Shown here piece by piece: positions 18,278 through 39,576 of a stretch of 64,000 bases of DNA. Position 1 is the stretch's first letter, and each line of letters starts with the position of its first letter. A program made the translations under genes and the position numbers. Source of the DNA: an uncultured Pseudomonadota bacterium (GTDB lineage: Bacteria > Pseudomonadota > Gammaproteobacteria > Steroidobacterales > Woeseiaceae); assembly GCA_913055625.1 (NCBI GenBank), contig CAJXJW010000009.1, positions 1-64,000 of the forward strand, read 5' to 3'. The notes below the pieces were generated by a model, which saw nothing but the letters and a program-made list of their open reading frames with translations, made no database searches and had not been told where the DNA came from.

Positions 18278-19405
18278 ATGGTGGCGAAAGGCGTCCCGAA
18301 AGAACGCATCGCGACGATCGACTGGATGCGCGGCTTCGTGATGCTGCTCATGGTCATCGACCACGCGTCGATGGCTTTCGACGGCGAGCACATCGCGCAC
18401 GATTCGGCGTTCTTCCCCGATGCGGGAACGATGGCGCTGCCGACCGCGGAGTTCCTGACGCGCTGGATCACGCACCTGTGTGCGCCGACGTTCGTCTTCC
18501 TGGCCGGCACATCGCTCGCGATCAGCATCGAGCGTCGTGTCGCCCGCGGCCTGCCGGCCCGGGACATCGACCGGAATATCCTGATCCGCGGCGCCATCAT
18601 CGCGCTGCTGGACCTGACCGTCGTGTCACTGGGCTCCGGCCGCTGGACGTTCGGCGTCCTGTACGCGATCGGCGTGTCGATGATGTGCATGGCGGGCCTC
18701 CGCCGGCTGCCGACCTGGGGCCTGTGCGCGGTGGCGATCGGCTGGATGGCGCTCGGCGAGCTGGTCGTCGGTGCCGTGTGGAACCCCCCCGGCGGCACGT
18801 CGATCGTGTCCGCGCTGACGATCGGCTACTACCGCAGCGACAGCCTGTTCATCATCTACCCGTTCGTGCACTGGCTCGCCATCATGATGCTGGGCTGGGT
18901 CTTCGGCCGGCACCTTATCCAGCACGCCGCCGGCGAACGCCGCGTCTCGGGCAAGGCGGTGTTGTGGATCGCCGGCGTAGCCGGCCTGCTGGTGTTCGTC
19001 GCGGTGCGCTATGCCGCGGGCTACGGCGACATGTTCCTGCACCGCGCGGACGGCAGCTGGCAACAGTGGCTGCACGTGAGCAAGTACCCGCCGTCCATCA
19101 CGTACCTGGGCCTCGAGCTCGGCATCCTGTTCCTGTGTCTCGCGTTGCTGCGGACACTGGAGCCGATCATCGGCGTGCGCCGCAACGGCATACTGCTGGT
19201 CTTCGGCGAGACGGCGATGTTCTACTACCTCGTGCACCGGCTCGTGCTGGAGGTGCCGGCAACGTGGTTCGGTTTGCGCGGCATGGGCGACATCACGACG
19301 ACCTACGTCGTCTCGGCGGTGCTGGTCGTGCTGCTGTACCCGGCCTGCCTGTGGTATCGCGGGTTCAAGAAGGCACACCCGGACACGTTCCTGAAATACC
19401 TTTAA
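18278..19405 (+). CDS. DUF1624/HGSNAT-like membrane acyltransferase
   Basis: 375 aa with about 9-10 membrane helices. It begins with a segment typical of the heparan-alpha-glucosaminide N-acetyltransferase catalytic family and DUF1624 (TIDWMRGFVMLLMVIDHAS, residues 14-32, with the conserved His). Such proteins transfer acyl groups across the membrane to sugars or other acceptors; the substrate here is unknown. Start ATG at 18278 was chosen: the frame is open to a TTG at 18155, but that extension is not membrane-like. It is divergent from ppk2 and convergent with the transglycosylase gene (4-base overlap of the ends). Confidence 0.8.
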   Translation: MVAKGVPKERIATIDWMRGFVMLLMVIDHASMAFDGEHIAHDSAFFPDAGTMALPTAEFLTRWITHLCAPTFVFLAGTSLAISIERRVARGLPARDIDRNILIRGAIIALLDLTVVSLGSGRWTFGVLYAIGVSMMCMAGLRRLPTWGLCAVAIGWMALGELVVGAVWNPPGGTSIVSALTIGYYRSDSLFIIYPFVHWLAIMMLGWVFGRHLIQHAAGERRVSGKAVLWIAGVAGLLVFVAVRYAAGYGDMFLHRADGSWQQWLHVSKYPPSITYLGLELGILFLCLALLRTLEPIIGVRRNGILLVFGETAMFYYLVHRLVLEVPATWFGLRGMGDITTTYVVSAVLVVLLYPACLWYRGFKKAHPDTFLKYL

Positions 19406-20193
19406 TCCACCCGGAACCCGGCGCGTTGCAACACCCGGGCGCCGTCCTCGAACGCGTCCTTGTCGGCGTACGTGAAGACGACGTCGAAGCGGCCCACGCC
19501 GGTGCGGAACCAGTCGACCTGGATCGGCGTGCCGCCGTCGGGGAGGCGGTCCTCGACGAGCGCGACGAAGGCCTCGGCGCGATACGGCTCGCCGAAGCTC
19601 ACGAGCAGCGACCGGCCGAGCTCCGAGTACAGCGAGGACCCCGCGAGACCCGGCACGCCGCCGCCGAGCACGAAACCCAGGTGCCGGTAGATGTAGGCGC
19701 TGTACCAGCGCGCGCCCGACGGAATACGCGTGGCGCCGGGCCGGATGCGCCCGGGCCCGTAGTTGTAGGCAGCCAGCGCGAGGTGCAGGTCGCCGTCGTA
19801 GCGGTCGAGGAGCTCGACGAGGTAGCGCGCGCCGGCGTCGATGTTGACGCACGGATCGTAGAGCTGGGACAGGCGCTGTATGCCCAGGTGCTTCGCGGTA
19901 CCGGGCCACTGGATCTGCATCACGCCGTGTGCGTTCGCACGCGACTTGGCGACCGGGTCGAAGTCGCTCTCGCCGCGGGCGACCGCGAGCAGCAGCGTCA
20001 GCGGCAGCGAGTGATCGCGCGCGGCGCGCCGGAAGCAGTCGGAGTGCGGGAACGTGTAGCCCGGCTCCAGCGTGGACGCCGACGCCATGTACTGCGCCCA
20101 GGCGCGTGCCGGGTCTTCGGCCGTTCCGCTCGCCGCCGCCGGCGCGGCGCAACCCGTGACCAGCCAGAGTACCGCGAGCGCGCGCGTGCTCAC
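19402..20193 (-). CDS. Lytic transglycosylase lipoprotein (SLT domain)
   Basis: 263 aa. A short signal peptide with lipobox (LVTGC, Cys15) indicates membrane anchoring. The SLT/lysozyme-like domain spans about 50-180, with catalytic Glu75 in ARGESDFDP, then GVMQIQ (90-95) and AAYNYGPG. It should cleave glycan strands of peptidoglycan to anhydro-muropeptides. A C-terminal part of about 70 residues resembles small alpha/beta glycan-binding domains. The GTG start at 20193 overlaps the upstream gene's stop by 4 bases. It is the last gene of a seven-gene envelope operon, suggesting local wall opening for that system. Confidence 0.88.
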   Translation of the reverse strand: MSTRALAVLWLVTGCAAPAAASGTAEDPARAWAQYMASASTLEPGYTFPHSDCFRRAARDHSLPLTLLLAVARGESDFDPVAKSRANAHGVMQIQWPGTAKHLGIQRLSQLYDPCVNIDAGARYLVELLDRYDGDLHLALAAYNYGPGRIRPGATRIPSGARWYSAYIYRHLGFVLGGGVPGLAGSSLYSELGRSLLVSFGEPYRAEAFVALVEDRLPDGGTPIQVDWFRTGVGRFDVVFTYADKDAFEDGARVLQRAGFRVD

Positions 20194-20711
20194 GGCCGCT
20201 CCGCCGCGAGGTCGAGACCCGTCGCGGCGGCGATCTGTTCGAGCCCGGCGTCGAGACCCGTTGCGTCGTCGTAGGCGAACGCGACCTGCCACGCGCCCTT
20301 GCCGAGCTTCTGCACGCGGTAGTCGAGACCCGTCACGCTCTCGAGCCGGCTGACAAAACCGCGCGCCGCGATCTCCGTGCGAAACGGCGTCCAGATCGCG
20401 TGCCATTCGGGCTGCGTCAGCACGAAGGGCGGCTCCTCCGAAACGTCCGGTTGCTCCGGCGCGGCGGTGTCGACGGCCGACGGGGGCGTCGCGTCCGGCC
20501 GCGCCTGGGTCAGGGCGGGTTCGACAAGCTCGACGGGCTCCGGGGGCTCGCGCTCCTCCCACCGGCTCTGCGCGTTCTCGATCGCGGCGACCATGCGCGC
20601 CTGGTTCGCATCCCCGGCGTCGTCCCGGTGGAACTCGGGGATGCCCAGGAGCAGGACGAGCGCGCTGGCGGCCAGGAACGCGCCGACGACGATGCCGAGT
20701 ATCCTGATCAT
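20190..20711 (-). CDS. Single-pass protein with SPOR-like C-terminus
   Basis: 173 aa. One membrane helix (about 5-22) is followed by a Pro/Glu-rich linker (about 55-110) and a compact C-terminal domain (about 112-170). The pattern of that domain (ARGFVSRLESVTGLDYRVQK, then a short beta strand and a helix) resembles SPOR domains that bind denuded glycan strands. That assignment is by eye. ATG at 20711 was preferred over an upstream ATG at 20756 because the membrane helix starts here. It overlaps the transglycosylase start by 4 bases, so both are probably made together. Confidence 0.7.
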   Translation of the reverse strand: MIRILGIVVGAFLAASALVLLLGIPEFHRDDAGDANQARMVAAIENAQSRWEEREPPEPVELVEPALTQARPDATPPSAVDTAAPEQPDVSEEPPFVLTQPEWHAIWTPFRTEIAARGFVSRLESVTGLDYRVQKLGKGAWQVAFAYDDATGLDAGLEQIAAATGLDLAAERP

Positions 20712-20722
20712 CGGCGGCCCAC

Positions 20723-22207
20723 TCAGAGCACGGCCCGGGTGCGAACCGCGCGCCACGCGACGTCGTCCGACCGCGCTTTAAGCACGGCGCGCAGGCCGCG
20801 GAGCCAGTGCTCGAGCGCCGCGCCGTCGAGCCCCGGCCGAACGGCGTCGGAACAACGGGCGGGCAGTGTCGCGACGTGCTTCGAGATTTCGCGTGCCGAC
20901 TCGCCGTCGGCGGTCGCAATGGCGAAGTAGACCTCACCGCCGGGCGCCGGGGTCCAGCCGGGCACGGGCGACCACGTCGCATCGTCGATGGCGACGAGGT
21001 CCGGTACCCGCACGGTCAGCGACTCGCCCTTCCGCAGCACGTGCGGACGGGGACGGATGGTGCAGCTGTCGTCGTCGAGGCGGACGAGACCGAGATTCTG
21101 CTGGTGGTTGAGGATGAAGACGACCGCGTCGTCGGCGGCCGTCACCCGGAGTGCCGCGCAGCGCTCGCCGCTGCGCGACAGCAGGGTGGCGGTCGTGCCG
21201 GCCTGCCGGCACACGGGGCTGCCGGAAAGGCGGACCAGGCGCATGTCGCTCAGGAGCGTCGTCGTCGACACCGGCATCTCCGGCGCGTTGTCAACGACGT
21301 GGGGCGCCTGCGACGACAGCTCGACGTACACGCTGCTCGCGAGCGGCTGCAGGTCGCCCTGCGTGCCGACCGGTTCCAGCACCAGCCAGTACTGGTGCAG
21401 GTCCCCGGCAACGGGGTGCAGCGCGCCGTTCAACGCGGCGTTTGCTGCGCTCGCACTGGACGTCAGCCGGAGCGAGCTGATCCCGCCAACCTGGTGAGAG
21501 ACGAGTTTCGGCACGGCCCCAAGGGCATTGTCGTCGCTAGGCTCGTCATTCACCGCGAGCCGGTACTCGCCCGACACCCGGCGCATGAGTTGGCAGCGCA
21601 GGTCGCGGGCCAGGTGACTCGCGATCAGGTCCGTTTCGGACGCGTCGTAGGGCACGTCGCGCCGACCGAGGTAGGCGCGGTCGACGGCGGCGGTGGCGAA
21701 CGCGCGTTGTTGCCCGGCCGAAAGGCGGCCCTCCCATTCGCGGCCGAAGCCCGGCACCCAGCGATGCTCTGTATCGTCGAGGGCACGGACGTTGACGACC
21801 GCCGTGCCGTCGCGCGCCGCGCGGACCTCGATTCCGACGAGCAGGTCGGGGTGCATGGCCTTGCAGTCCTCTGCGGTTACCGGCGCCTGCCGCAACGCCT
21901 GGTCGGGATCCGGCTGCCAGCCGAGACGAATGTCGCGCCGTCCGGCGAGACTCCGTCGCAGGCTGTTGCGCAGCGCGAGCGACAACTCGTCCGTGCGGGA
22001 CGCGGGCTGGTCGCCCGCGAAGACGACCAGTTCGACCGACGCGCCGGCGAAGCGGGGCGAGGTCGTCAGCCGCGCATACACGTAGTCGGCGAGTTCGCCC
22101 GAGACCCAGTCCTCGACATCACGGGTGGCGGGCACCGCCGGGTCCGCGAACGACAACAGCGCGATCGCGAGTGCCGCGAGCAGGGGATCGGGACGTCGCG
22201 TGAACAT
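20723..22207 (-). CDS. Periplasmic protein of unknown family
   Basis: 494 aa with a signal peptide (about 1-27). The N-terminal part (about 30-200) alternates strands and helices in a way that recalls the LpoB/FlgO/TolB-N group of periplasmic proteins (ELSLALRNSLRRSLAGRRDI, then LLVGIEVRA), but I cannot place it firmly. The C-terminal 280 residues look like one or two beta-sandwich domains, with Cys in pairs. No catalytic motif was seen. It is the largest member of the seven-gene operon, 3 bases after the ExbD-like gene and 11 before the SPOR-like gene, so probably the core periplasmic part of the system. Confidence 0.65.
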   Translation of the reverse strand: MFTRRPDPLLAALAIALLSFADPAVPATRDVEDWVSGELADYVYARLTTSPRFAGASVELVVFAGDQPASRTDELSLALRNSLRRSLAGRRDIRLGWQPDPDQALRQAPVTAEDCKAMHPDLLVGIEVRAARDGTAVVNVRALDDTEHRWVPGFGREWEGRLSAGQQRAFATAAVDRAYLGRRDVPYDASETDLIASHLARDLRCQLMRRVSGEYRLAVNDEPSDDNALGAVPKLVSHQVGGISSLRLTSSASAANAALNGALHPVAGDLHQYWLVLEPVGTQGDLQPLASSVYVELSSQAPHVVDNAPEMPVSTTTLLSDMRLVRLSGSPVCRQAGTTATLLSRSGERCAALRVTAADDAVVFILNHQQNLGLVRLDDDSCTIRPRPHVLRKGESLTVRVPDLVAIDDATWSPVPGWTPAPGGEVYFAIATADGESAREISKHVATLPARCSDAVRPGLDGAALEHWLRGLRAVLKARSDDVAWRAVRTRAVL

Positions 22208-22210
22208 GTG

Positions 22211-22888
22211 CTACTCCCGCCGCAACGTGCCGTTCGTGGTGATGACGAGTTCGCCGCTGCCGCCACCGGCGACGCGGGCATCGATTTCGCGGGAAAGACG
22301 CGGCGGCAGCGTGACGCCCCAGCGTGAGGCGCCGCCGGCCGCCGCGATGTCGGACGGCACCGTCGCCGCCTCCATCTCGTGGAACACGGTCGGCATCGAC
22401 GCTTTCCAGAAGACCGGCCGGCCGCTCTCGAGCCGCAGACGGCGCGCATCGGCGTCCTGCATCGCGTAGAGACCGACTTCGCCGCGGGCGACCAGCGACT
22501 TCAGGGCAACATCCGATTCGAAGCGCAGTGTGAAGCCGTCGTCCGCGGGCGGGGCTGTCGCGGGCGCCGCGACGGGCGCCGCGGTTGTGGCGGCCGCGGG
22601 TACGCGCGCGCGGGCCGGCGGCGGTTTGACGGGCTCGACGGTCACGGGTTCGGCAACCGGCGCGCCTCGGGTGACCGGCGTCGGTGCTTCGCGTGCCGGC
22701 GCCTCGGGTGTCGGCGGTTCCGCCGCGGGGGTCTGCTCCATCGGCACCGACTGCACGAGCGCGAAGATCGCCACCAGGCACAGGGCGAGTATCGCCATGA
22801 AGCGCATGACGTCGGTCTGCAGGTCCGCGGCGCCGCCGGCGTCAGCGGTGAACCACGGCGCCGGGAAGCCGTGCGGCAGGCGCGTCAC
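22211..22888 (-). CDS. ExbD/TolR-like single-pass protein
   Basis: 225 aa starting at GTG 22888, which overlaps the stop of the ExbB-like gene by 4 bases. One membrane helix (about 27-48) is preceded by Asp26 in LQTDVMRFMAILALCLVAIF. This mirrors the Asp-Val-Met start of the ExbD/TolR helix, where Asp carries protons. It is followed by a long Pro/Ala-rich linker (about 50-115) and a soluble periplasmic domain (about 118-225). Architecture, order and overlap all fit an ExbB-ExbD type stator pair. Similarity is by motif only and sequence identity to known ExbD proteins would be low. Confidence 0.62.
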   Translation of the reverse strand: MTRLPHGFPAPWFTADAGGAADLQTDVMRFMAILALCLVAIFALVQSVPMEQTPAAEPPTPEAPAREAPTPVTRGAPVAEPVTVEPVKPPPARARVPAAATTAAPVAAPATAPPADDGFTLRFESDVALKSLVARGEVGLYAMQDADARRLRLESGRPVFWKASMPTVFHEMEAATVPSDIAAAGGASRWGVTLPPRLSREIDARVAGGGSGELVITTNGTLRRE

Positions 22889-23529
22889 CGTTCGCCTCCG
22901 CCACGGCCGAAGGTCCGGACCTGCTGCTCGATCCGGTGCAGCACGTCGCGGATGCTCGACGAGTCGACGCGTGCGGCTGCGTTGTAGTGCTGCTGCAGGC
23001 GCGAACCGAGCGTGACCGACTTGTAGACGCGCATGAGGTAGCCGCCGACGCCGCCGAAGATCGTCGTCGACAGCGCGAGCAGGATCCCGCCGTCCACCAG
23101 CCGCCGCAGTACGTTGATGGCGCCGGTGTCGATCGAGACGTCGGGGTTGCCGAGCGCGCTGATCAGGGCGCTGCGCATGCCGATCGCCGTCCAGATCACG
23201 CCGGTGCCGAAGAACAGCGCGGTCCAGGTGTCCGACAGGTGATCGAGCTGGACGATGCGTTCGATCGGCCGCTCGTTGTCGAGCGCGTGACGCAGCCGCA
23301 GTAGCGTGATGACCCAGGCGGCGAGCAGCAGGGCGAAGACCGGAATCGACGAACCGAGATTCGCTTTCGCCCATCCGAGCCAGGCATCGACGCCGGGCAG
23401 CAGTGAATCGGAAAACCTGATCCACGCCTGCTGCTCCAGCAGGTAGAGGAGTGTGCCGGCGATGGCGAACGTGCCGGCCGCGCCCGCGCCCAGTCCCTCG
23501 AGAAAATGGCGGCCGGTGCCGCGGGTCAT
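22885..23529 (-). CDS. MotA/TolQ/ExbB-like proton channel protein
   Basis: 214 aa with four membrane segments (about 13-30, 62-78, 103-122, 147-166) and a cytoplasmic tail. Two helices carry features of the MotA/TolQ/ExbB core: FFGTGVIWTAIG (107-118), resembling the GLLGTVxGI helix, and LALSTTIFGGVGGYL (151-165) with the Thr-Thr pair of the proton path. It should pair with the following ExbD-like protein to convert proton flow into motion. Standard ExbB has three helices; the extra N-terminal one resembles some TolQ relatives. Assignment is by motif and context. Confidence 0.62.
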   Translation of the reverse strand: MTRGTGRHFLEGLGAGAAGTFAIAGTLLYLLEQQAWIRFSDSLLPGVDAWLGWAKANLGSSIPVFALLLAAWVITLLRLRHALDNERPIERIVQLDHLSDTWTALFFGTGVIWTAIGMRSALISALGNPDVSIDTGAINVLRRLVDGGILLALSTTIFGGVGGYLMRVYKSVTLGSRLQQHYNAAARVDSSSIRDVLHRIEQQVRTFGRGGGER

Positions 23530-23539
23530 CGCGCCGTCC

Positions 23540-24088
23540 TCAGCGTCCGGCGCGCGCGGCGCACGCGGTGCAGGTCGCTTCCAGCACGAGCTCGACCTCG
23601 CGATAGAGCTCGTCCGACCGGTAGTAGGCGGCGTTGTCCTCGGTGATCCGGATCAGCCCGCGTTCCTTGTCGGACAGCTCCCGCTCCATGCTGAGCATCA
23701 CCTGGTCGCGCCGCGGGCAGGTGTACGAGCAGTTGTTGTAGTCGCCGGCGAGCGAGACGAACTTCACGTTGAAATAGCGGTTGTAGTGGTCGCGCGCCTG
23801 CTGCTTGCTCAGGATGCCCTCGTCGGACGCCCAGACCAGGAACTCGCTGAACTGCCGCTTGTTGCCGGGCTTCGGGTCGCCCTCGGCGATCGTGAGCAGG
23901 TCGTCGAAGTAGCGGTCGAAGTGTGCTGCGCAGCTGCCGCCGAGACTGGACTTCGCCTGCGCAAACGCGGCGTCGAGGTTACGCGTTGCGATGCCGCCGC
24001 AATCGGGCGGCGCGCTGGCACAACCGGCGAGCGTGAACACGAGCGGCGCGAACAGCGAGAGGAAAAGCCGATGAGTTTGCTTGAACAT
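23540..24088 (-). CDS. Cys-rich lipoprotein of envelope operon
   Basis: 182 aa with a clear lipobox (TLAGC, Cys23), so a membrane-anchored lipoprotein. The mature part is helical and rich in Cys: one just after the lipid site, one in GGSCAAHF, two in NNCSYTCPRR and two near the C-terminus in EATCTACAAR, suggesting disulfides or a metal or heme-like site. CxxC-H is absent, so it is not a c-type cytochrome. No family recognised. It is the second gene of the operon, 10 bases from each neighbour. Confidence 0.65.
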   Translation of the reverse strand: MFKQTHRLFLSLFAPLVFTLAGCASAPPDCGGIATRNLDAAFAQAKSSLGGSCAAHFDRYFDDLLTIAEGDPKPGNKRQFSEFLVWASDEGILSKQQARDHYNRYFNVKFVSLAGDYNNCSYTCPRRDQVMLSMERELSDKERGLIRITEDNAAYYRSDELYREVELVLEATCTACAARAGR

Positions 24089-24098
24089 GGTGGTCTCC

Positions 24099-24935
24099 CT
24101 AGTTCGCGAGCGGGCTGATCCAGGCTTCTTCCGTGTGCGACGGTGGCGGCGCGGAAACCGCGTAGTCCATCGCCTCGTCGCCGAACAGGATCGACTTGAC
24201 GCCGCCGACGACCTCCATCATCTCGGGCGTGATCGCGCCGAACGACTGGTTGAGCTGTTCGACGAGCGTCGCGCGGGCGATTTCCTCGCGCGTCCTCGCG
24301 ATCAGCACCGACGTCTCGTCCATGTCGAGGTAGATGTCCGAGGCGAGGACGGCGAGCGACTGGTCGGTGCTGCCGCCGGACGAGGCGACGAGCTGGTAGT
24401 ACTGGCGGAAGCGTTCGCTCAGGCGCATGCCGGACCGGCCGCGCAGCGTCGGGCCCGCGGTCGACGACGACGTCGCGTCGCTCGTCGTGCCGCCGAGGAG
24501 CATCTCCTGCAGCGACCACGGCGTCATCTTGTTGCCGATCTCGCTCTGCAGCCGCTTCTCGAGGCTGAGCCGCGTGTTGTTGACGGTGTGTTCCATGTCG
24601 GGCAGCCGCTCCTCCATGATGCCGAGCATCTCGAGGTAGGTGGCGCCGATCTGCCGGGCGAGCCGTTCGCAGCCGGGGTCGCTGTCCGCGCCTTCGCACT
24701 TGCTGCCGAGGTAGAGCTCGCGCTGCTGGTCGAGCCGCCCGATCACTTCCTGCAGGCCGGTCTCCATTTCCTTCGCCACGGAGCTCGTCTGCTTCAGGTC
24801 CTCGACCACGGTGGTCGGGAACAGCCGTATGGTCGGCGAGCTGCCTTGCGGCGAGTTTGCAGGCGCGTTACCGGAGAGGAGCAGTCCGGCGGCGAGCAGG
24901 ACTGCCAGTGGCGCTGACGTCTTCGTAACGTGCAT
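24099..24935 (-). CDS. Exported helical protein, first gene of envelope operon
   Basis: 278 aa with a signal peptide (about 1-27, ending APANS). The mature protein is largely long amphipathic helices (about 35-125 and 160-240) with coiled-coil character. Two Cys about 11 residues apart sit in a loop (SKCEGADSDPGCERL). No known family was recognised. The frame is open upstream, but ATG 24935 directly precedes the signal peptide and has GGGAGGG as a ribosome site. It is the first gene of the operon running to 19402, with the promoter expected in 24936-25091. Confidence 0.65.
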   Translation of the reverse strand: MHVTKTSAPLAVLLAAGLLLSGNAPANSPQGSSPTIRLFPTTVVEDLKQTSSVAKEMETGLQEVIGRLDQQRELYLGSKCEGADSDPGCERLARQIGATYLEMLGIMEERLPDMEHTVNNTRLSLEKRLQSEIGNKMTPWSLQEMLLGGTTSDATSSSTAGPTLRGRSGMRLSERFRQYYQLVASSGGSTDQSLAVLASDIYLDMDETSVLIARTREEIARATLVEQLNQSFGAITPEMMEVVGGVKSILFGDEAMDYAVSAPPPSHTEEAWISPLAN

Positions 24936-25106
24936 CGGTCCACCCTCCCACGATCGGATTATTGAAAGACTTGTCGGGTTCTGGGGTGACCGTACCGGCC
25001 AATCCCTGAATGCAAGCTGAATGCCGGTCAGGGCGCCAGATTTCGATACCGGCCGGCGCCGGATTGCGTTAGCGTTAGCGGCACTTACGCCGTGGAGCAT
25101 GCACCC
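24936..25106. promoter_or_regulatory. Divergent control region of envelope operon
   Basis: A region of about 170 bases between the minus-strand seven-gene operon and the plus-strand barrel gene. It must hold both promoters. On the minus strand an AATAAT-like -10 is visible near 24960, and GGCGCC repeats lie near 25030-25065. I could not define a convincing -35 for either direction. Confidence 0.3.
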
Positions 25107-25895
25107 GTGACGACCCGCCCGTACCGGAACCTTCCTGCACTGATTGCCCTGCTCACGATCGCGCTGCCGGCGGCGGCGGACAGCGTCCCGGGCTGGGAGC
25201 CCGGCCTGACGATCGTGCCCTACGGCTGGCTCGCCGGTATGAAAGGGAAAATCGGGACCAACTCCGCTGACCTCGATCCTGGCGGCGACCTCGGGCTGCC
25301 GCGGCGCGTCGACGTGATCGTCGACGACGAACTCGAGGAAATCGGGTTCATGTTCTTCGGCGAATGGCGCGGCGAGCGCTGGCACGCATTCTTCGATTCG
25401 GTGTGGGCCAACGTGGCGCAGGACGGGGACATCCGCTTTGGAAACATCCTGCCGGGTACGGCCGTGCGGGCGGGCATCGACGGCAACGTCTACCAGCTGG
25501 CCGTCGGATACCGGCTGTTCGGGGGGGCGGCGGGCTCGATGTCGCTGTACGGCGGCGCGCGCTATTACGATCTCCTCGCCGAGGCCGAATTCCAGGGCGG
25601 CCTGCTGCCGGGCGGCGCGACGGCGTCGGCGTCGCAGTCGTGGACGGACGGCGTGATCGGCGCCCGCTGGGGCTATCGCATCAACGACACCTGGCAGGGC
25701 CTCGTTCTAACCGACGTCGGCATCGGCGAGTCGGACCTGTCCTGGCAGGTGTTCGCGACCATCGCCTGGCGCTTCAATGAATGGGGCGCGGTCGCCGGCG
25801 GCTACCGCTACCTCGCCCTCGACTACGAAACGGCGGACTACAAGGCCGACCTGTCGCTCCAGGGACCGGCGATCGGCCTGTCGATCCGGTTCTGA
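25107..25895 (+). CDS. Outer-membrane beta-barrel protein
   Basis: 262 aa with a signal peptide (ending about PAAADS), repeated amphipathic strands with Gly/Tyr/Trp girdles (for example VYQLAVGYRLFGG and WGAVAGGYRYLALDY) and a C-terminal Phe (SIRF), all typical of an outer-membrane barrel. The start was set at GTG 25107 because GGAG lies nine bases upstream; an in-frame GTG at 25092 is the alternative. It is divergent from the envelope operon. No specific function can be assigned; OmpW-sized barrels and hypothetical surface proteins share this look. Confidence 0.65.
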   Translation: MTTRPYRNLPALIALLTIALPAAADSVPGWEPGLTIVPYGWLAGMKGKIGTNSADLDPGGDLGLPRRVDVIVDDELEEIGFMFFGEWRGERWHAFFDSVWANVAQDGDIRFGNILPGTAVRAGIDGNVYQLAVGYRLFGGAAGSMSLYGGARYYDLLAEAEFQGGLLPGGATASASQSWTDGVIGARWGYRINDTWQGLVLTDVGIGESDLSWQVFATIAWRFNEWGAVAGGYRYLALDYETADYKADLSLQGPAIGLSIRF

Positions 25896-30765: not shown

Positions 30766-31389
30766 ATGGACGCTGCAAGCATCAGGAATGCACTCGCTAC
30801 GGTCGACGCACCCGCCGACGCAGGTGAGGCCGAACGCTGCGCGACGCTGCTCGCCGAGCTCGAACGCTGGAACCGGACGGTCAATCTGACCGCGATCCGG
30901 GATCCGGACGAGATGGTGACGGCCCACCTCCTCGACAGCCTCGTCGCCCGCGGCCTGCTGCACGGCGTCGCCGTGCTGGACGTCGGCACCGGCGCCGGCT
31001 TCCCCGGCCTGCCGCTCGCGATCGCGGAGCCCGACCGGCACTTCTGGCTGCTGGACAGTACCGCGAAGAAGATTCGCTTCGTCGAGCATGCCGCCGCCCT
31101 GCTCGGGCTCGGCAACGTGACGGCTGTGGCGGCGCGGGCCGAAGACTATGCACCCGGGCGGCGCTTTGATACCGTGATCGCCCGGGCCGTCGCCACCGTG
31201 CCGCGGCTGCTGGGCCTGGCGGGTCACCACGTGGGAGAGGACGGGGTGTTCATCGCGCTGAAGGGGCGCGATCCCGCCGAAGAACTTGAAGCATTGCCCG
31301 CGGGGTGGGCTTATGACGTCATTCCACTGGCGGTTCCGGGGCTTGCCCCGGGGTCGCGGCATGCCGTCGTCCTGCGGCGGGCCGGCTGA
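30766..31389 (+). CDS. rsmG: 16S rRNA (guanine-N7) methyltransferase RsmG
   Basis: 207 aa, normal RsmG length. It methylates N7 of G527 in 16S rRNA. NLTAIRD (40-46) and HLLDSL (54-59) are family signatures. The SAM-binding DVGTGAGFPG is at 72-81, and IARAVATV lies in the later core. The frame is open far upstream, but ATG 30766 begins the family sequence. It is first of rsmG-parA-parB, the origin-proximal set; the usual upstream partner mnmG (gidA) is missing and replaced by a divergent glycine-zipper gene. Confidence 0.95.
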   Translation: MDAASIRNALATVDAPADAGEAERCATLLAELERWNRTVNLTAIRDPDEMVTAHLLDSLVARGLLHGVAVLDVGTGAGFPGLPLAIAEPDRHFWLLDSTAKKIRFVEHAAALLGLGNVTAVAARAEDYAPGRRFDTVIARAVATVPRLLGLAGHHVGEDGVFIALKGRDPAEELEALPAGWAYDVIPLAVPGLAPGSRHAVVLRRAG

Positions 31390-31419
31390 ACCGAACGGCC
31401 GCAGAGACCGGTACGGCTT

Positions 31420-32205
31420 ATGACAAGAATCATCGCCATCGCAAACCAGAAGGGCGGCGTCGGGAAGACCACGACGGCCGTAAACCTTGCCGCGTCGCTC
31501 GCCGCGACGCAGCGGCGCGTGCTGCTCGTCGACATGGACCCGCAGGGCAACGCGACGATGGGCTGCGGCATCGACAAGCGCGATGTCGAGAACTCGGCCT
31601 GCGACGTGCTGCTCGGCGACGCGACCGCGGCCGACACGATCGTGTCCGCGCCGGAGGGCAACTTCGCGGTGCTGCCAGGCAACGAGGACCTGACGCTCGC
31701 CGAGGTGAAGCTGTTGCAGGAGATCGGCCGCGAGATGCGCCTCAGGCAGGCGCTCGCGCCGGTGGTCGGCATGTACGACTTCATCCTCATCGACTGTCCG
31801 CCGTCGATCAACATGCTGACGGTGAACGCGCTGACGGCGGCGGACGGCGTGCTGATCCCGATGCAGTGCGAGTACTACGCGCTCGAGGGGCTGTCTGCGC
31901 TGCTGAACACGATCGACCAGGTCCGGCAGACCGTGAACCCCGGCATCGGCGTGTTCGGCATCCTGCGCACGATGTTCGACCCGCGCGTGAACCTGTCGAA
32001 CGAGGTGTCGATGCAGCTTATCGAGCACTTCGAGCAGAAGGTGTTCCGGACGGTCATTCCGCGGAACATCCGGCTCGCCGAGGCGCCGAGCTTCGGCCGG
32101 CCCGCGTTGCTGCATGACCGCTCGTCGCGGGGTGCGATATCCTACCTGGCCCTGGCCGGCGAGATATTGAGGCGCGAAGACGCGCGCATGGCCGAGGCAG
32201 TCTGA
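31420..32205 (+). CDS. parA: Chromosome partitioning ATPase ParA (Soj)
   Basis: 261 aa deviant-Walker ATPase. KGGVGKTT (11-18) carries the signature Lys11 and the P-loop; DMDPQGN and IDCPPSI complete the nucleotide site. ParA-ATP coats the nucleoid and moves ParB-parS complexes, segregating origins. It has no N-terminal DNA-binding extension, as for chromosomal Soj. It lies 30 bases after rsmG and 10 before parB. Confidence 0.95.
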
Positions 32206-32215
32206 CGGGAATCCC

Positions 32216-33121
32216 ATGAACGCAAGAAAGAAACGTCTCGGGCGCGGACTGGACGCGCTGCTGTCGAAGCCGGCGAGTACCGCGCCCGAGCCGCCGGCCG
32301 CCGGGCCGACTGCCGGCAAGGACGCGCTGAAGACCGTCCCGGTCGACCTGCTGCAGCGCGGCCAGTACCAGCCACGCGTCGACATGCGCCAGGACTCGCT
32401 GGACGAGCTCGCCCGGTCGATCCGGGCGCAGGGCGTCGTGCAGCCGATCGTCGTGCGGCCGGTCGGTCCTGCCGGCGGCCCGAGCCAGCGCTACGAGATC
32501 GTCGCGGGCGAGCGTCGCTGGCGCGCCGCGCAGCTCGCGGGCCTGCAGGAGATCCCGGCCGTCATCCGCGACATCGCCGACGAAGACGCGATCGCGATGG
32601 CGCTGATCGAGAACATTCAGCGCGAGGACCTGAACCCGCTGGAGGAGTCGCGCGCCCTCGACCGCCTCATCCGGGAGTTCGAGCTCACGCACCAGGAAGC
32701 GGCCGACGCGGTCGGCCGCTCGCGCGCCACGGTCACGAACCTGCTGCGCCTGCAGGAGCTGTCGTCGAAGGTGCGCCCGCTGCTCGAAGATCGCCAGCTC
32801 GACATGGGCCATGCCCGTGCGCTGCTGGCCATCACGAACCCGGTGCAGCAGTTCGATGCGGCACGACAGGTCGTGAAGAACGGGCTGTCCGTGCGCGCGA
32901 CCGAGCGGCTCGTGAAGTCGATGCTCGAGCCGCCGAAAGCGAAGAAGCCCGCGTCGCAGGCCCCGGCAGCGAACGCCGACATCCGCCGCCTCGAAATGGA
33001 CGTGTCCGAGAAGCTCGGCGCGAAGGTGAAGCTGGAACATTCCAGCAAGGGCGCCGGCAAGCTCGTCATCAGCTACAACAACCTCGACGAGCTCGACGGC
33101 ATCCTGAAGCACATCAAGTAA
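32216..33121 (+). CDS. parB: Chromosome partitioning protein ParB (Spo0J)
   Basis: 301 aa. It starts with the typical KKRLGRGLDALLS peptide that stimulates ParA, followed by a ParB/sulfiredoxin-like CTPase domain with GERRWRAA, a helix-turn-helix (about 155-205, THQEAADAVGRSRATVTNLL) and a C-terminal dimerisation domain. It binds parS and spreads as a CTP clamp. I did not find a clear parS copy (TGTTNCACGTGAAACA type) in this window. The next plus-strand gene is atpI, 3.8 kb on, because a reversed AsmA gene intervenes. Confidence 0.95.
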   Translation: MNARKKRLGRGLDALLSKPASTAPEPPAAGPTAGKDALKTVPVDLLQRGQYQPRVDMRQDSLDELARSIRAQGVVQPIVVRPVGPAGGPSQRYEIVAGERRWRAAQLAGLQEIPAVIRDIADEDAIAMALIENIQREDLNPLEESRALDRLIREFELTHQEAADAVGRSRATVTNLLRLQELSSKVRPLLEDRQLDMGHARALLAITNPVQQFDAARQVVKNGLSVRATERLVKSMLEPPKAKKPASQAPAANADIRRLEMDVSEKLGAKVKLEHSSKGAGKLVISYNNLDELDGILKHIK

Positions 33122-33156
33122 TTGCCGGCCCGTCCTGACCGGCCGTTCGACGCCGG

Positions 33157-36100
33157 CTATTTCGTCGAGGCCGGCGGCGCCGCGGCCTGCGGTACGTCGA
33201 GATCCGGCAAACGATCGCCGAGACGCTCCTGGCCCGCCTGCACCGCCTGGCCGCAGGGATCGTTGCCGCGGCTCAGCCGGTTCCATACTCCCTGCGCCAG
33301 GATCGTCAGCCCTCCGGTCGCGACCGCCGCGCCACCGGTGATCAGCACGCCCTTCTGATCCACGGCGAGCCGCGGTTTCGCCATCGTGCCGACAACCGCG
33401 ATGTACGGATTGATGATCTCGCCGGCACTGATGCTGAGCCGGCGCTTGGGCTCGGTACGAAACCCGAGCTCGATCTTCTCGGTGCCGAGGTCCGCCAGCA
33501 CGCGCGCAACGATGAGCAATTTGTCCGAGCTGAAGAGCGAGGTCGGCGCGGATTCGAGCTTTCCGCTGTTGATCTCCGTTGCGACTATGATGCACTCGAT
33601 CGCTGTATACGGCTCGGTCTTGCGGAACGGATTCACCGTATTGAGAATCTCCTCCAGCACATCCCCGTAGAGCATGCTCAATACGCGGTTGCCCCGGTCG
33701 ATACGCCCGCCGAAGCGGCGAACGAAAACGATGCCGTCCGTGTTCGACAGTGCCGAACGCAGGTCCATACCGGTGAATTCGAGATTCACGTCCCAGTCGC
33801 CGTGCGGCCGTGCATCGGCATCCGTACCCACGGTGCCGAAGTAGATATTGCGGCCGACCGCGCGCAGGTAGCCCGTGCCGCCGCCGGCGGGGTCCAGTCG
33901 CAGCTGCGCCCTGGCCGAACCGCTTACCGGATCGAAGCTGAAATTCGACACATCGAGAACGCCATCGGCAACGGTTGCGTCCATCGACACGTTTCGCAAC
34001 ACCAGGTTCTCGTGCTGGAAGTGGCCGACGTCGATGTCGACCGCCGCGTTGAACGTCGCGAGCGCGTCATACGGCATGGCGATATCCGGAATCATCCGGC
34101 CGTCGCTTTGCAGTGCAACGGGTTCGGACGGTGTCGCCGGAGCCTCGAGGAACGGCGCGATGACGACGGAATTCGAAGTGACGACGAGATCGACCATCGG
34201 AACATCCCCGGCCTGCACTTCCAGCGTGCCGTGCAAATCGCTCTCGCCGATCTTCAAGTTGAGTCTTTCGGCCGACAACACGCCGCTTCCGCCCCGTATT
34301 TCCGTGTCGAGCGCCAGCGCCTGATCGCGAAATGCGCGTTCGCCGAAGCGCCCGAATCCGGCAAGGCTCGGAATCGCCACCTGCAGGTTGAAGCGCGCAG
34401 TCGAGGTGCTTCCGCGTAAGTCGATTACGCCGTCCGCGGTCGCAACCGCATCGCCCACCTCCGCCTTCGCATCGAGGAACGACCAGCGGTCACCCTGGCG
34501 GCTGCCCTCGACCTGCAGCGAGAACGGCAGCGCCAGGAGATCGAATCCACCCTTGCCATGGAACAGGTCGCGGATGTCGCCGCCACTGGCGCGCGCATTG
34601 AATGTCATCCACTGCCCGGACGCCGACCTGCCCATCTCGAGATCCAGCTTCGCGCGACCGCCCGGCCGTTCGAGATCGATCTGCTCGAGCATGATGGCGT
34701 CCGCGCTGAACGCGATGCTGCCCGACAGGCGGAACGGGCCCCGGCGGACCCGCAGGCCCGCGAACGAATTCTCGAGCTCCTCGAACGCGGGGCCGCTGGC
34801 GCTTGCGGAGAAACGCGAGCCGTGGATGCTGCTCGTGAACGCGAGCAGGCCGTCGCCTTCGATCGACGCACTGCCCAGCGACCCGGCCACCTTCTGAATC
34901 CGCAAGCCGCCGGCGTCCAGGAGCACGGCCGCGTCGACCTCGAAGGGCTGATTCGGTACGTATGCCGCATCGGCAAAACCGCCGACCAGCGTCGCGAGAC
35001 TCCCACCGCGGGCCTCCAGATCGGCACGGCCGCCCTGCAGGCCGGCCGTGAGCGGAATCGAGGCCTCCATGCTCACCGCGTTGTCGGCGAGCTTGATGAG
35101 CGCGGGTTTCGTCGTGCGAATGGCGCCCTCTTCCACGGCCAGCGCGGCGTCGATACCTGCCGGCCAGTCGGGCATCTTCGCCTCGAGCCCGTACGTCGCC
35201 ATCAGCTTCGACACGCTGCCGATCTCGGCCGATACCTCGAGGTCCGTCCCGGCAAACTTCGGTCCCGAGCCGACCTGACCCCGAACTTGCGCCCTGCCGA
35301 GCGGTGAATGGGCATTCAGCGTCAGTTGCGGGCGCGCGGAACCGCTGCTCGCGACACCGAGCGAGAGATCGAACGGCCCCGAGGCCACGGCCGGCAGGCC
35401 GGCGGCGGATAGGAGGCGCTCCAGGGCCTCGCCCGTGACGTGCAGCTCGGCATTGCCCTCATCAACGCCCGGAAATCGTGGCAGGCGCCCGCTTGCCGTG
35501 AAGCGGGTGCCCGCAAATGTTCCCTCCGCCTTGCGGATCTCGAGCAGCGCCCCGCGTCGTTCGGCGTCGATGACGATTTCCAGGGGTGCATCGCGCACAT
35601 TGTGTATGCCCGCGATGCGCAGCGCGCGACCGAGATCCGGCGCCGACGCGCGCAGGTTGAGATCGACCGTCCGGTAATCCCGCAGGTTCGTAACGGCGCC
35701 TTGCGATTCGATGGACGTCAGGCCGATGTTGCCGTTGACGGCGAAATGCACCAGGCCGTCGTCTCCGGGCCCGACCTTGCCGTTCAGGGTGATGTCACCC
35801 TCGCCTTCGTCACCGATCGCGAGCATCCGGGTCACGTCGTCGATGTCGGGTGCCGTCGCCGTGAATTCGATCTCGGGTCGGCGCAGGTCGGCGAGGTCGT
35901 CGACCCGCCCGCTCATGGACACTTGCAGCGTGTCGAGGGCGGCCGTGATGTCGAAACGGATGTCCCTTCCCGACAGCAGCGCCTCCCAGGTGCCCGATTC
36001 GCCGTCGAGGCTGATGCTGCGCCCGTTCAGCGTCGCATCGAACCCGAAGTCGAGAAAACCGTCTTCCCGGAGATGCTGATCGAGCGATTCGACCTTCAGT

Positions 36101-36624
36101 TCGAGCGGGCCGTCGCGGTGCACGCTCTCGTAGCGCAGCTCGATGTTCCGGGCGTTTGCGTGGCGGATGCGCATGCCCGTGACGGCCGGGGTGCGCGTTT
36201 CCTCCGGCGCCTTCTTCGGGTTGCCTGCGGGTGCTTGCAGTTGCCAGTTCGGATCCTGGCCTTCCGCCCGTGCCAGGTGGACCCGGACATTCTCGATGTC
36301 GATCAGCTCAAAGGTGACCGGGCCGGAGAAGACGGTCCAAAGGTCGACGCGGGCCTCTATCCTGCCCACGCTGATCATTTCCGGCTCGTCAGCCCAAGTC
36401 GCATTCCCGAGACGGATGCCTTCGGCCACGATCACGCTGTGGCGCGCGAGATCGATGCTGAGGTGGCCGTCGATCCTGAACTCCCGACCGGTTGCCTCGC
36501 TGACGAATCGCTCGATCTGCGGTTTGAGCACGCCGAGGTCGGCGAACCACAGCAAGGCGACAAGCAGCAAGGCGACGGCGACGAGCCCGGCCGCGGCCCA
36601 TGCAGAGAATCGTTTCAGGCGCAT
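33157..36624 (-). CDS. AsmA family protein, large
   Basis: 1155 aa. An N-terminal membrane helix (about 8-30) is followed by the AsmA family start (FVSEATGREFRIDGHLSIDL) and a very long, repetitive beta-rich periplasmic body with Gly/Asp-rich turns. The C-terminal AsmA_2-like region (about 850-1130) includes ISAGEIINPYIAVVGTMAKP. AsmA-like proteins are VPS13-related bridge-like lipid carriers between inner and outer membranes. Start ATG 36624 was chosen at the membrane helix. The gene lies in reverse between parB and the atp operon, where many relatives have no gene. Confidence 0.88.
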   Translation of the reverse strand: MRLKRFSAWAAAGLVAVALLLVALLWFADLGVLKPQIERFVSEATGREFRIDGHLSIDLARHSVIVAEGIRLGNATWADEPEMISVGRIEARVDLWTVFSGPVTFELIDIENVRVHLARAEGQDPNWQLQAPAGNPKKAPEETRTPAVTGMRIRHANARNIELRYESVHRDGPLELKVESLDQHLREDGFLDFGFDATLNGRSISLDGESGTWEALLSGRDIRFDITAALDTLQVSMSGRVDDLADLRRPEIEFTATAPDIDDVTRMLAIGDEGEGDITLNGKVGPGDDGLVHFAVNGNIGLTSIESQGAVTNLRDYRTVDLNLRASAPDLGRALRIAGIHNVRDAPLEIVIDAERRGALLEIRKAEGTFAGTRFTASGRLPRFPGVDEGNAELHVTGEALERLLSAAGLPAVASGPFDLSLGVASSGSARPQLTLNAHSPLGRAQVRGQVGSGPKFAGTDLEVSAEIGSVSKLMATYGLEAKMPDWPAGIDAALAVEEGAIRTTKPALIKLADNAVSMEASIPLTAGLQGGRADLEARGGSLATLVGGFADAAYVPNQPFEVDAAVLLDAGGLRIQKVAGSLGSASIEGDGLLAFTSSIHGSRFSASASGPAFEELENSFAGLRVRRGPFRLSGSIAFSADAIMLEQIDLERPGGRAKLDLEMGRSASGQWMTFNARASGGDIRDLFHGKGGFDLLALPFSLQVEGSRQGDRWSFLDAKAEVGDAVATADGVIDLRGSTSTARFNLQVAIPSLAGFGRFGERAFRDQALALDTEIRGGSGVLSAERLNLKIGESDLHGTLEVQAGDVPMVDLVVTSNSVVIAPFLEAPATPSEPVALQSDGRMIPDIAMPYDALATFNAAVDIDVGHFQHENLVLRNVSMDATVADGVLDVSNFSFDPVSGSARAQLRLDPAGGGTGYLRAVGRNIYFGTVGTDADARPHGDWDVNLEFTGMDLRSALSNTDGIVFVRRFGGRIDRGNRVLSMLYGDVLEEILNTVNPFRKTEPYTAIECIIVATEINSGKLESAPTSLFSSDKLLIVARVLADLGTEKIELGFRTEPKRRLSISAGEIINPYIAVVGTMAKPRLAVDQKGVLITGGAAVATGGLTILAQGVWNRLSRGNDPCGQAVQAGQERLGDRLPDLDVPQAAAPPASTK

Positions 36625-36673
36625 CGGCCGATTATGGCTCAACCCGCGACCCGGGCAATCGCGGTGACCGGAG

Positions 36674-36710
36674 AAAACCCCCGTTTTTCCCGGAAAAAAC
36701 AGGGGGTTTT
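36674..36710. repeat. Long near-perfect hairpin upstream of atp promoter
   Basis: Outer arms AAAACCCCC (36674-36682) and GGGGGTTTT (36702-36710) pair for 9 bases. Inner arms GTTTTT (36683-36688) and AAAAAC (36695-36700) add 6 more, with a single bulged A (36701) and a 6-base loop. On both strands it ends in Ts, so it could act as a bidirectional terminator isolating the atp promoter, or as an attenuator in the AsmA leader. Confidence 0.6.
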
Positions 36711-36736
36711 GCGTCAAATCGCGGGTTGTTTTTGTG

Positions 36737-36765
36737 TTGCCATGCCGGAGGGGTGCCTCTATAAT
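36737..36765 (+). promoter_or_regulatory. Sigma70 promoter of the atp operon
   Basis: TTGCCA (36737-36742) and TATAAT (36760-36765) with an exactly 17-base spacer, one mismatch to the -35 consensus and none to the -10. A GC-rich discriminator (GCGCACGC) follows directly, as expected of growth-rate-controlled promoters. It is the strongest promoter-like sequence in the window. Confidence 0.8.
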
Positions 36766-36880
36766 GCGCACGCTACACGCGAGCTCGCCTGGATAACAGC
36801 AACGAAGCACCGCAATCGAAGCGCCACCAACCGCCGGATTTTCCTGTGGACGTGGCGTTTTTAGTGCCAGAGGCAAACGA

Positions 36881-38111
<1,231 letters not shown>

Positions 38112-38156
38112 GAATTTTGTATTAACTTTCAACACGTTGGACACGATCCTCTTTAG

Positions 38157-38444
<288 letters not shown>

Positions 38445-38482
38445 TTCGTTGGCGCGGTTGCAAGGCCGCGCGCCTGCTGAAA

Positions 38483-38495
38483 CCCGCTTTGCGGG
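38483..38495 (+). other. Small hairpin between atpE and atpF
   Basis: CCCGC-TTT-GCGGG forms a 5-base stem with a 3-base loop in the 78-base gap after atpE. It may set transcript ends or stability so that atpE mRNA is in excess over the downstream genes. The stem is short, so the role is speculative. Confidence 0.35.
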
Positions 38496-38522
38496 CGATC
38501 ACCAACGGCACAGGTAAGAAAC

Positions 38523-38993
38523 GTGGACATTAATCTGACACTCATCGGCCAGACGATCGCGATGATCGTGTTCGTCGGGTTCTGCATGAAGTTCATCTGG
38601 CCGCCGATCCTCAATGCGATCGAGGAGCGGCAAAAGCAGATCGAGCACGGCCTCGCGGCCGCCGATCGCGGCGAAGAGAAGCTGAAGCAGGCACAGGCCG
38701 AGGCCGAGGACATCATCGCCGACGCGCGGCGCCAGGCGACGTCGATCATCGACCAGGCGAACGCCCGGGCGAACGAGATCGTGGCCGACGGCAAGGCCGC
38801 TGGCCAGAAGGAACGCGAGCGCCAGCTCGCGGCGGCGGAAGCCGAGATCCAGGCCGAGACGAACCGGGCGCGCGAAGAGCTGCGCGGACAGGTATCGGCC
38901 GTGGCAATCGCCGGCGCCGAGAAGATCCTGATGCGCGAGATCGACGCGAACGCGCACGAGGATATCCTGGGCAAACTGGCTCAGGAGCTGTAA
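38523..38993 (+). CDS. atpF: ATP synthase Fo subunit b
   Basis: 156 aa, the E. coli length. One N-terminal membrane helix (about 5-25) is followed by a long charged, Ala/Glu-rich coiled coil that forms the peripheral stalk dimer. The start is GTG at 38523. It sits between atpE and atpH, with 6 bases to atpH. Confidence 0.95.
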   Translation: MDINLTLIGQTIAMIVFVGFCMKFIWPPILNAIEERQKQIEHGLAAADRGEEKLKQAQAEAEDIIADARRQATSIIDQANARANEIVADGKAAGQKERERQLAAAEAEIQAETNRAREELRGQVSAVAIAGAEKILMREIDANAHEDILGKLAQEL

Positions 38994-38999
38994 GCCCTC

Positions 39000-39563
39000 A
39001 TGGCTGACAACAACACGATCGCACGGCCCTACGCCCAGGCTATCTTCGACGTCGCGCGCGAGAACGACGCACTCGGCGAGCTGTCGACGGCGCTGAACGC
39101 GGCGGCCGGGTTGCTCGCCGACGGCCAGGTCGCGGAGTTCCTGCAGACGCCGACGCTGACGGATGCGCAGCGCCTCGAGTTCCTGCAGGGGCTGTTCACC
39201 CGCGCGATGGGCGACGGTTCCGTGCTGGCCGGCGGCAGCCGCCACGGCACGAACTTCCTGAAGCTCCTGATCGAGTACGACCGGGTCGGCGTGCTGCCGG
39301 AAATCGCCACGCACTTCGATGCGCTGAAGGCGGCAGTGGAGAACACGGTCGACGTGACCGTCCGCTCGGCCACCGCGCTGTCGGACAAGGACCGGGCTGC
39401 CTACACGGCGGCGCTCGAGAAGCGCTTCGGCCGCAAGGTCAGCCTGACCACCGAACTGGACGAAGACCTCATTGGCGGTGCCGTGATCCGCGCCGGCGAT
39501 GTCGTGATTGACGGATCACTGCGGGCCAGGCTCTCGGGCCTCGCCACCGCGCTGATCAACTGA
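39000..39563 (+). CDS. atpH: ATP synthase F1 subunit delta
   Basis: 187 aa (OSCP/delta family, usual length about 178). An N-terminal helical domain ([12 protein letters not shown]) binds alpha, and a C-terminal part contacts subunit b, including the conserved end [20 protein letters not shown]. It joins the stalk to the top of F1. It starts 6 bases after atpF and is followed after 13 bases by atpA. Confidence 0.95.
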
Positions 39564-39576
39564 CGAGGAAAAAACC

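Follow-up and report, generated by a model that had tools for sequence, protein, structure and literature searches.

A conserved seven-gene envelope operon with a remotely ExbB/ExbD-like pair, a candidate trans-envelope machine, shares an operator-like repeat with a two-component operon in Gammaproteobacteria

Introduction

ExbBD, TolQR, MotAB and ZorAB are motors of the 5:2 type, and according to the available text of a recent study many trans-envelope systems driven by such motors are still to be discovered (PMC12204202). In the same text, the Asp-bearing helix protein of TolQ-like motors with vWA-type transpore-helix transducers is the proposed force transducer (Williams-Jones et al. 2025, PMC12204202), and TolA is described as varying between Pro-rich and helical forms. 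Here we analyse a stretch of 64,000 nucleotides, hereafter the window, from an uncultured bacterium of the Woeseiaceae (contig CAJXJW010000009.1 of assembly GCA_913055625.1, positions 1 to 64,000), and within it an operon of seven minus-strand genes, g1 to g7, at 19402-24935. The block is a real conserved unit that holds a motor-like pair and a protein of the lytic transglycosylase family, and it is preceded by a direct repeat that also stands before a two-component operon elsewhere in the same genome. We propose that its products build a trans-envelope machine powered by an ion motor of the 5:2 type and placed under envelope-stress control, a reading that we hold to be probable on balance. 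No published description of the seven-gene operon was found in a literature search limited to openly licensed papers.

On the regulatory side, the closest described systems are BqsRS of Pseudomonas aeruginosa and DbfQRS of Vibrio cholerae. In the available part of the respective reports, BqsRS responds to Fe(II) and the BqsR operator reads TTAAG-N6-TTAAG (PMC4682146); DbfQRS, made up of a PepSY protein, a regulator and a kinase, responds to outer-membrane damage, is activated by lipopolysaccharide defects, polymyxin B and thymol, and appears to be positively autoregulated (PMC12714742).

Results

The genome that holds the window (G000) comprises 3.6 Mb in 20 contigs, with the operon on contig C9. 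Gene calls place the seven genes on the minus strand with successive spacings of 10, 10, -4, 3, 11 and -4 bases, confirming the dense packing, with gaps of 3-11 bases and 4-base overlaps, that an earlier model-made reading of the letters alone (the sequence-only reading) had described. G+C at third positions is 0.87-0.92 across the seven genes, in support of coding, and the genes are real. The claim of that reading that every product is exported or membrane-bound is borne out in part: lipobox, transmembrane or signal-like features are visible at the N-termini, with cautions, but a hydropathy scan with a simple threshold passes no segment in g1 or g7 and two of the four predicted helices in g3.

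A pattern-based scan with the g1 alignment over a collection of 84,980 species yielded 119 relatives, of which 80 were kept, mostly from gammaproteobacterial metagenome-assembled genomes and overlapping with a set of 18 related genomes (L028-L045). Gene order and strand are preserved in all 80 public loci, and all seven genes are present in 53 of the 54 loci that extend 6 kb or more beyond g1 and are free of Ns, the single exception being L118, which has no recognisable g6; an apparent loss of g5-g7 in L109 and L112 was rejected, as the sequence there runs into Ns. The 18 related genomes likewise hold all seven genes in the same order, a few genes being cut by contig ends, and the co-occurrence that the sequence-only reading had proposed as a check is thereby confirmed. 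The surroundings vary: counting singletons, 73 loci show 34 different upstream neighbours. Over 53 operons, every pair of genes gives correlated distance matrices (r 0.88-0.96). In a tree of the operons (53 rows, 30 without order label) the Woeseiales, Chromatiales and Pseudomonadales rows each form one group, and the window copy falls within a fork (support 100) in which all 16 rows with a Woeseiales label are found. Given the preserved order, the correlated distances and the tree groups, the block appears to be ancient, to have been passed on largely as a whole and to have been lost often. Separate envelope proteins that are co-expressed as a conserved regulon block, and do not form one machine, would fit the fact that sequence gives reasons to act together only for g3 with g4 and for g6 with g7. 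The near-absolute gene order, with overlaps and in varied surroundings, argues against this explanation, as does the high gene-distance correlation, though common descent alone also yields such correlation, and we regard it as improbable.

A g3 search placed the operon in 24 of 60 genomes, the window's own counted, so it is dispensable, and this patchy presence counts against the machine that we propose. Searches with g1 matched 6 of 369 genomes in the class and 57 of 296 in the order, again with the own genome counted, and across 398 genomes of the phylum the g1 profile matched only the own genome and one stretch of 42 residues (E 9.1e-4). Viral contigs searched with g3 gave no relative. Short g1 matches with stop codons in three genomes (G004:C10, G011:C91, G904:C43), two of them of 1.5 Mb, look like decayed copies, and a further genome (G400) has two g1 matches on separate contigs (C144, C82), where a second copy or type may exist.

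The motor-like pair is formed by g3 and g4. Gene g3 (22885-23529, minus strand) encodes a membrane protein of 214 amino acids resembling an ExbB/TolQ/MotA-type channel subunit, with four long predicted helices at residues 5-33, 47-84, 89-126 and 137-209 (AlphaFold2, pLDDT 84.7). The motifs GVxWTAxG, found in 76 of 76 members, and GGILxALx[TS]T, found in 75 of 76, give a neighbouring helix pair with conserved Thr-bearing motifs, as in TolQ/ExbB, and in an hhalign alignment they fall on the TolQ/ExbB motifs themselves. The hhalign score of g3 against TolQ/ExbB (25.9) exceeds both the maximum of 100 column shuffles (21.8) and the reversed control (12.7); the first two Foldseek rows are ExbB 6ye4 and TolQ 8vlw, weak at E 0.16; and residues ~46 to 214 of the model align to TolQ, ExbB and ZorA chains in VIA-align. 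Gene g4 (22211-22888, minus strand, GTG start) overlaps g3 by 4 bases in the window, which is also the commonest g3-g4 spacing in related loci, and encodes a single-pass ExbD/MotB-like subunit of 225 amino acids. Its layout is that of an axle, with a single transmembrane helix and an Asp (Asp26 in the window) present in 70 of 70 members; the window protein has one hydropathy segment (27-45), followed by a Pro-rich arm of 69 amino acids and a C-terminal domain. The arm is Pro-rich in 51 of the 70 members (median 91 amino acids), poor in Pro with a coiled-coil-like composition in 10 (median 133.5 amino acids, five of the ten being near-identical endosymbiont rows) and of an intermediate type in 9 (42-167 amino acids); it stays long while its type changes. 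Against ExbD, the C-terminal domain scores 26.2 in hhalign, above the maximum of 100 shuffles (23.1).

Several results pull the other way. The hhalign probability of the g3 match is only 6%, and the VIA-align comparison of g3 with TolQ 9ddn (Z 10.0, rmsd 5.1, 146 residues aligned) is tied with unrelated helical proteins, Z values below 13 for helical models not being counted as proof of fold. Neither g3 nor g4 of the window matches a Pfam family at E 1; PF01618 MotA_ExbB is matched by none of 39 g3 members at E 0.1, and PF02472 ExbD is not among the 25 families listed of 34 for 39 g4 members. Searches of the PDB with sequence alignments gave nothing for g3 or g4, and the transmembrane part of g4 alone does not align with ExbD (hhalign, no score). 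In view of the weak Foldseek E-value, the tied VIA-align rows and the low hhalign probability, we do not file g3 in the ExbB/TolQ family: it resembles these channels, the likeness being remote and below family cut-offs. What the sequence-only reading had called an ExbB/ExbD-like pair accordingly retains its motifs, its Asp and its scores above shuffles, but not a place in the families themselves.

A second feature of the block concerns the cell wall. Gene g7 (19402-20193, minus strand) encodes an SLT lytic transglycosylase of 263 amino acids that matches PF01464 SLT at E 1.5e-25; in a profile search of all seven proteins, as the sequence-only reading had suggested, it is the only product over a Pfam cut-off, with none for g1-g6. 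A catalytic-type Glu-Ser is present in 56 of 56 members, 50 by pattern and six exceptions (ESNW) by eye, and in PHROGs g7 falls to transglycosylase-type families, g4 and g6 having only weak matches in that database. The earlier call of a lytic transglycosylase lipoprotein thus holds for the enzyme; g7 is not in general a lipoprotein, its lipobox occurring in 4 of 56 members and not being a family feature. Gene g6 (20190-20711, minus strand) encodes a single-pass protein of 173 amino acids with a transmembrane segment at 4-22 and a C-terminal domain homologous to the C-terminal part of g7 (hhalign probability 96, E 4.6e-9). The relation of this domain to SPOR is fainter: PF05036 SPOR is not found for window g6, is weakly matched by 2 of 39 g6 members (best E 0.045) and aligns over the SPOR length with the g7 C-terminal domain at E 0.0029 and probability 10.8 (hhalign). 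The g6-SPOR alignment, for its part, looks out of register, which speaks against the assignment. We describe the g6 and g7 C-terminal domain as weakly SPOR-like; g6 remains the single-pass protein that had been proposed, but with a weak SPOR likeness.

The remaining three products are predicted to lie in the periplasm or at the outer membrane. The best conserved of the seven is g1 (24099-24935, minus strand), an exported helical protein of 278 amino acids with 59-73% identity among 20 aligned rows and with Cys80 and Cys89 invariant in the alignment; it gave no family over cut-off, no credible PDB sequence match and no known relative, and PDB sequence searches with alignments of g1-g6 as a whole returned nothing credible. 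Gene g2 (23540-24088, minus strand) encodes a lipoprotein of 182 amino acids with its lipobox Cys at residue 23, one of seven Cys (23, 30, 53, 120, 124, 173 and 176) that are invariant in 29 aligned rows, and a lipobox is found in 69 of 78 family members. By the Lol rule, the residue after the lipobox Cys bears on outer-membrane placement; as Asp follows this Cys in only 1 member, the family sequences suggest that g2 sits at the outer membrane. Gene g5 (20723-22207, minus strand) encodes a large periplasmic protein of 494 amino acids with an LpoB/TolB-N-like N-domain and an Ig-like C-terminal part. In its AlphaFold2 model (pLDDT 86.6), LpoB rows head the structural list for residues ~32-162 (Z 7.5 with rmsd 5.8 over 112 aligned residues, then 6.5 and 6.5), with TolB (Z 5.7) and PelC (Z 5.4) further down, and Ig-like rows cover the residues from ~310, with Z no higher than 6.0. 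TolB, CsgG and GNA1162 appear in the Foldseek list but do not reach E 0.001; a lipobox is present in 15 of 63 relatives of g5, and DUF4384 is weakly matched by 2 of 38 members.

Upstream of g1, a perfect match to the operator-like direct repeat TTCAG-N6-TTCAG lies at 25006-25021 (minus strand), 71-86 bases before the g1 start. Among 80 upstream regions, each of 250 bases (from the window and 79 loci, L096 being left out for its short upstream sequence), the repeat is present with 10 of 10 letters in 51 and with 9 of 10 in 24 more, a total of 75, as against ~1% at 9 of 10 or better in Markov controls. In L065 and L081 the best place is listed at -152, with a 9/10 copy also at -63. The loci L123, L126, L127, L131 and L132, without the repeat in their 250 bases, carry a 9/10 copy further upstream (-623 to -919), which in L123, L127 and L132 precedes a clustered UmoD-like gene and in L131 a gene similar to it by eye; in L126 no gene is called between. 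The loci, 1.25 Mb in all, contain 62 perfect copies, of which 49 fall in the 150 bases ahead of g1, and no such copy of the reversed pattern.

The same repeat stands, in perfect form, at G000:C4:49998-50013 in the window's own genome, before UmoD-like, PepSY-like, regulator and kinase genes. The UmoD-like gene has a glycine zipper (PF05433), and the regulator (PF00072 and PF00486) and the kinase (HATPase_c) are over cut-off. Eight loci have genes for a PhoQ-like kinase and a PhoP-like regulator, together with a long UmoD-like gene, in the vicinity of the seven-gene operon; a clustered PepSY-type gene is found in seven of the eight, and PepSY is matched in L107. All 12 long-form UmoD-like genes (175-239 amino acids) have the repeat at 9/10 or better within 200 bases, and 11 short UmoD-like genes behind g7 in the operon, which serve as an internal control, score 6-8. 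A search with the regulator matched 50 of 60 genomes at E 1e-50; among the 30 regulator loci listed, 29 have the repeat at 9/10 or better within 1,400 bases upstream (controls 2%), namely 18 of 18 with the seven-gene operon and 11 of 12 without it. At E 1e-50 or better, the regulator is matched in 23 of 24 operon bearers versus 27 of 36 other genomes (Fisher p 0.04). The repeat and its link to the two-component operon are new here, lying outside the span covered by the sequence-only reading.

This arrangement is reminiscent of BqsRS and DbfQRS, in which a PepSY protein likewise adjoins a response regulator and a kinase, and of the BqsR operator, a direct repeat of pentamers with six bases between them. 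As given in the available text, the latter differs by one base per half, with TTAAG in place of TTCAG. Unlike both systems, the two-component operon described here is headed by the glycine-zipper UmoD-like gene, and the best NCBIfam models for its regulator and kinase are PhoP and PhoQ, below their cut-offs. From these systems we infer, by analogy, that the two-component operon may regulate the seven genes.

Such a regulatory link has to be weighed against several points. The repeat pattern was chosen from the same upstream regions in which it was then counted, and the loci are related, so that independent support comes from its presence before the two-component operon. The own genome holds the pattern 7 times versus 4 for the reversed control, and its two sites in the window are no more than chance would give, with 40 of 100 shuffled sequences reaching two at up to one mismatch. 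The own-genome PepSY-like gene has no Pfam match, and the UmoD label is weak, with 20.6 bits for NCBIfam UmoD versus a cut-off of 150; the best NCBIfam model for this gene is a hypothetical protein, just below its cut-off. Another OmpR-type regulator could also be the binder of the repeat.

Further copies of the repeat occur at a distance from the operon. The second perfect copy in the window (45922-45937, minus strand) lies 22 bases before a short lipoprotein-like gene (45360-45899, minus strand) with no Pfam match; as the two window sites are not above chance, this gene may be a regulon member or the copy a chance occurrence. Elsewhere in the own genome, a perfect repeat ~120 bases before a DUF2799 lipoprotein-like gene (L230, G000:C1:574339-574354) marks a candidate target. 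The idea that repeat spelling co-varies between the two promoters was given up, as several relatives have TTCAT in one and TTCAG in the other. In 11 loci (L097, L100-L102, L104, L111, L114, L115, L118, L122 and L134) g7 is followed, on its own strand, by an eighth gene for a short exported protein of UmoD-like type, and in others by similar small genes (c86, c93).

Upstream of g1, feoA and feoB are found in 25 of 73 loci (L065, L069, L074 and related ones), representatives matching FeoA, FeoB_N and FeoB_C, and a Fur-like box lies between feoA and g1 in several loci; a link to Fe(II) is possible. Control by Fur was rejected, since the box occurs where feoA diverges from g1 and may belong to feoA. 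These neighbours bear on an alternative in which the seven genes encode an energised envelope transporter, the motor pair powering the outward or inward passage of a lipid, metal or polymer between the membranes, along a path made of g1, g2 and g5. A motor-like pair with a long arm would suit such a device, as would the ferrous-iron transporter genes adjoining it in 25 of the 73 loci with an upstream gene called and the Fe(II) response described in the available text for the related BqsRS (PMC4682146). However, the operon has no match over cut-off to an outer-membrane barrel, permease or ATPase family, only part of the set has feoAB as neighbours and the Fur-like box there can belong to feoA, and, in the available part of the report, added iron left the DbfQRS reporter of V. 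cholerae unchanged (PMC12714742). We consider a transporter distinctly improbable.

Discussion

Among described systems, Tol-Pal (TolQ-TolR-TolA-TolB-Pal-CpoB) offers several parallels: the operon likewise combines a TolQ-like channel, a single-pass partner and a TolB-N-like domain with a lipoprotein and a periplasmic helical protein, and the g4 arm, like TolA, is Pro-rich or helical by lineage. Unlike Tol-Pal, it has no TolB propeller, OmpA-type Pal or TolA, none of which gave a Pfam or NCBIfam match in the seven proteins; its arm is fused to the Asp-bearing subunit; and it adds a transglycosylase and SPOR-like proteins. A separate locus of TolQ/TolR/TolB type, with neighbouring MotA_ExbB, ExbD and TolB matches, lies on contig C4 of the own genome. 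Of 60 genomes, 53 (the own among them) have a TolB match over cut-off, and on this ground a replacement of Tol by the operon was rejected.

A cell-division role would cast the seven proteins as a Tol-like constriction device that assembles at the septum by way of its SPOR-like domains and assists the inward movement of the outer membrane, independently of stress. The domain common to g6 and g7, the lytic transglycosylase and the LpoB/TolB-N-like domain of g5 would all be at home in such a device. Set against this, the repeat held in common with the two-component operon points to conditional expression, the own genome already possesses a TolQ/TolR/TolB-type locus, and 36 of 60 genomes gave no g3 match; a division machine is, in our assessment, unlikely.

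With ExbBD, TolQR, MotAB and ZorAB the operon shares the channel-type motif pair (g3) and the transmembrane Asp (g4), but the two proteins stay below family cut-offs and no flagellar, Ton or Zorya partner is over cut-off in the operon; judged by its sequences, it would work like a 5:2-motor system without being assigned to any of these families. The closest published idea, as far as the available text goes, is that of the TolQ-vWA motors, since the Asp-bearing helix protein g4 would itself transduce force, with neither TolA nor TonB. Unlike those motors, the operon proteins have no recognised vWA domain, and the available part of the published text names tolQ-like and vWA genes and no such wall proteins (PMC12204202).

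The absence of Tol-Pal, Ton and flagellar families over cut-off, together with the separate TolQ/TolR/TolB-type locus, upholds the view of the sequence-only reading that the operon is none of these systems as such. Its single conserved unit, motor-like pair and transglycosylase also stand, but several of the roles it had listed do not. A role in defence was rejected, PADLOC models including Zorya giving 0 families for all seven proteins; a flagellar part was rejected likewise, 9 of 24 operon bearers having no FliG match (some of these genomes are incomplete) and the association reaching p 0.065; and a role in secretion finds no secretion family over cut-off in the seven proteins. The best reading is that of a machine distinct from the TolQ/TolR/TolB-type locus and not tied to flagella.

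In the trans-envelope machine that we propose, g3 would form an inner-membrane channel ring in which two g4 helices sit, with their conserved Asp carrying protons. The g4 arm would itself be the force transducer, acting on g1, the lipoprotein g2 and the LpoB/TolB-N-like g5. An extended chain measures 0.31 nm per residue, and the 69-residue arm could span ~21 nm if extended, so that neither TolA nor TonB would be needed. Through their common SPOR-like domain, g6 and g7 may sit on the same wall sites, where g7 would cut glycan strands to make room for the machine or to couple to it. Expression would be switched on through TTCAG-N6-TTCAG by the PhoP/PhoQ-like regulator and kinase with their UmoD-like and PepSY-like companions, and the role of the machine would be to restore envelope order under outer-membrane or cation stress. 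What the sequences themselves establish is the unit with its gene order, the motifs, the domain common to g6 and g7, the transglycosylase family and the repeat that the two operons have in common; from assembly and proton flow to force transmission, regulator binding and the stress role, the further steps are what we infer.

A broader proposal, which we put forward tentatively and hold to be possible, is that Gammaproteobacteria possess, in parallel with Ton and Tol, another energised trans-envelope system, represented by this operon: its Asp-bearing motor subunit would be the periplasm-spanning transducer, a transglycosylase guided by SPOR-like domains would open the wall, and the whole would be built on demand by a PepSY-linked two-component system that senses outer-membrane stress. 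The operon is a candidate 5:2-motor system that comes with its likely partners, lytic and wall-binding proteins standing in the same block. The conserved operator-like repeat predicts when it is made, turning an unannotated block into a directly testable system, and the tie between a PepSY-linked two-component system and a candidate machine would help to explain what such widespread regulators control.

As to the remainder of the window, an RNA scan gave no RNA family at gathering score and no tRNA, and a consensus promoter scan of 19000-25300 found none. Three genes at 491-4010 resemble what we take, from their sequence, to be the methylcitrate pathway. At 30766-43907 lie genes that we presume to be RsmG-, ParA-, ParB- and ATP-synthase-like; they hint that, in this genome, the operon is close to the origin of replication.

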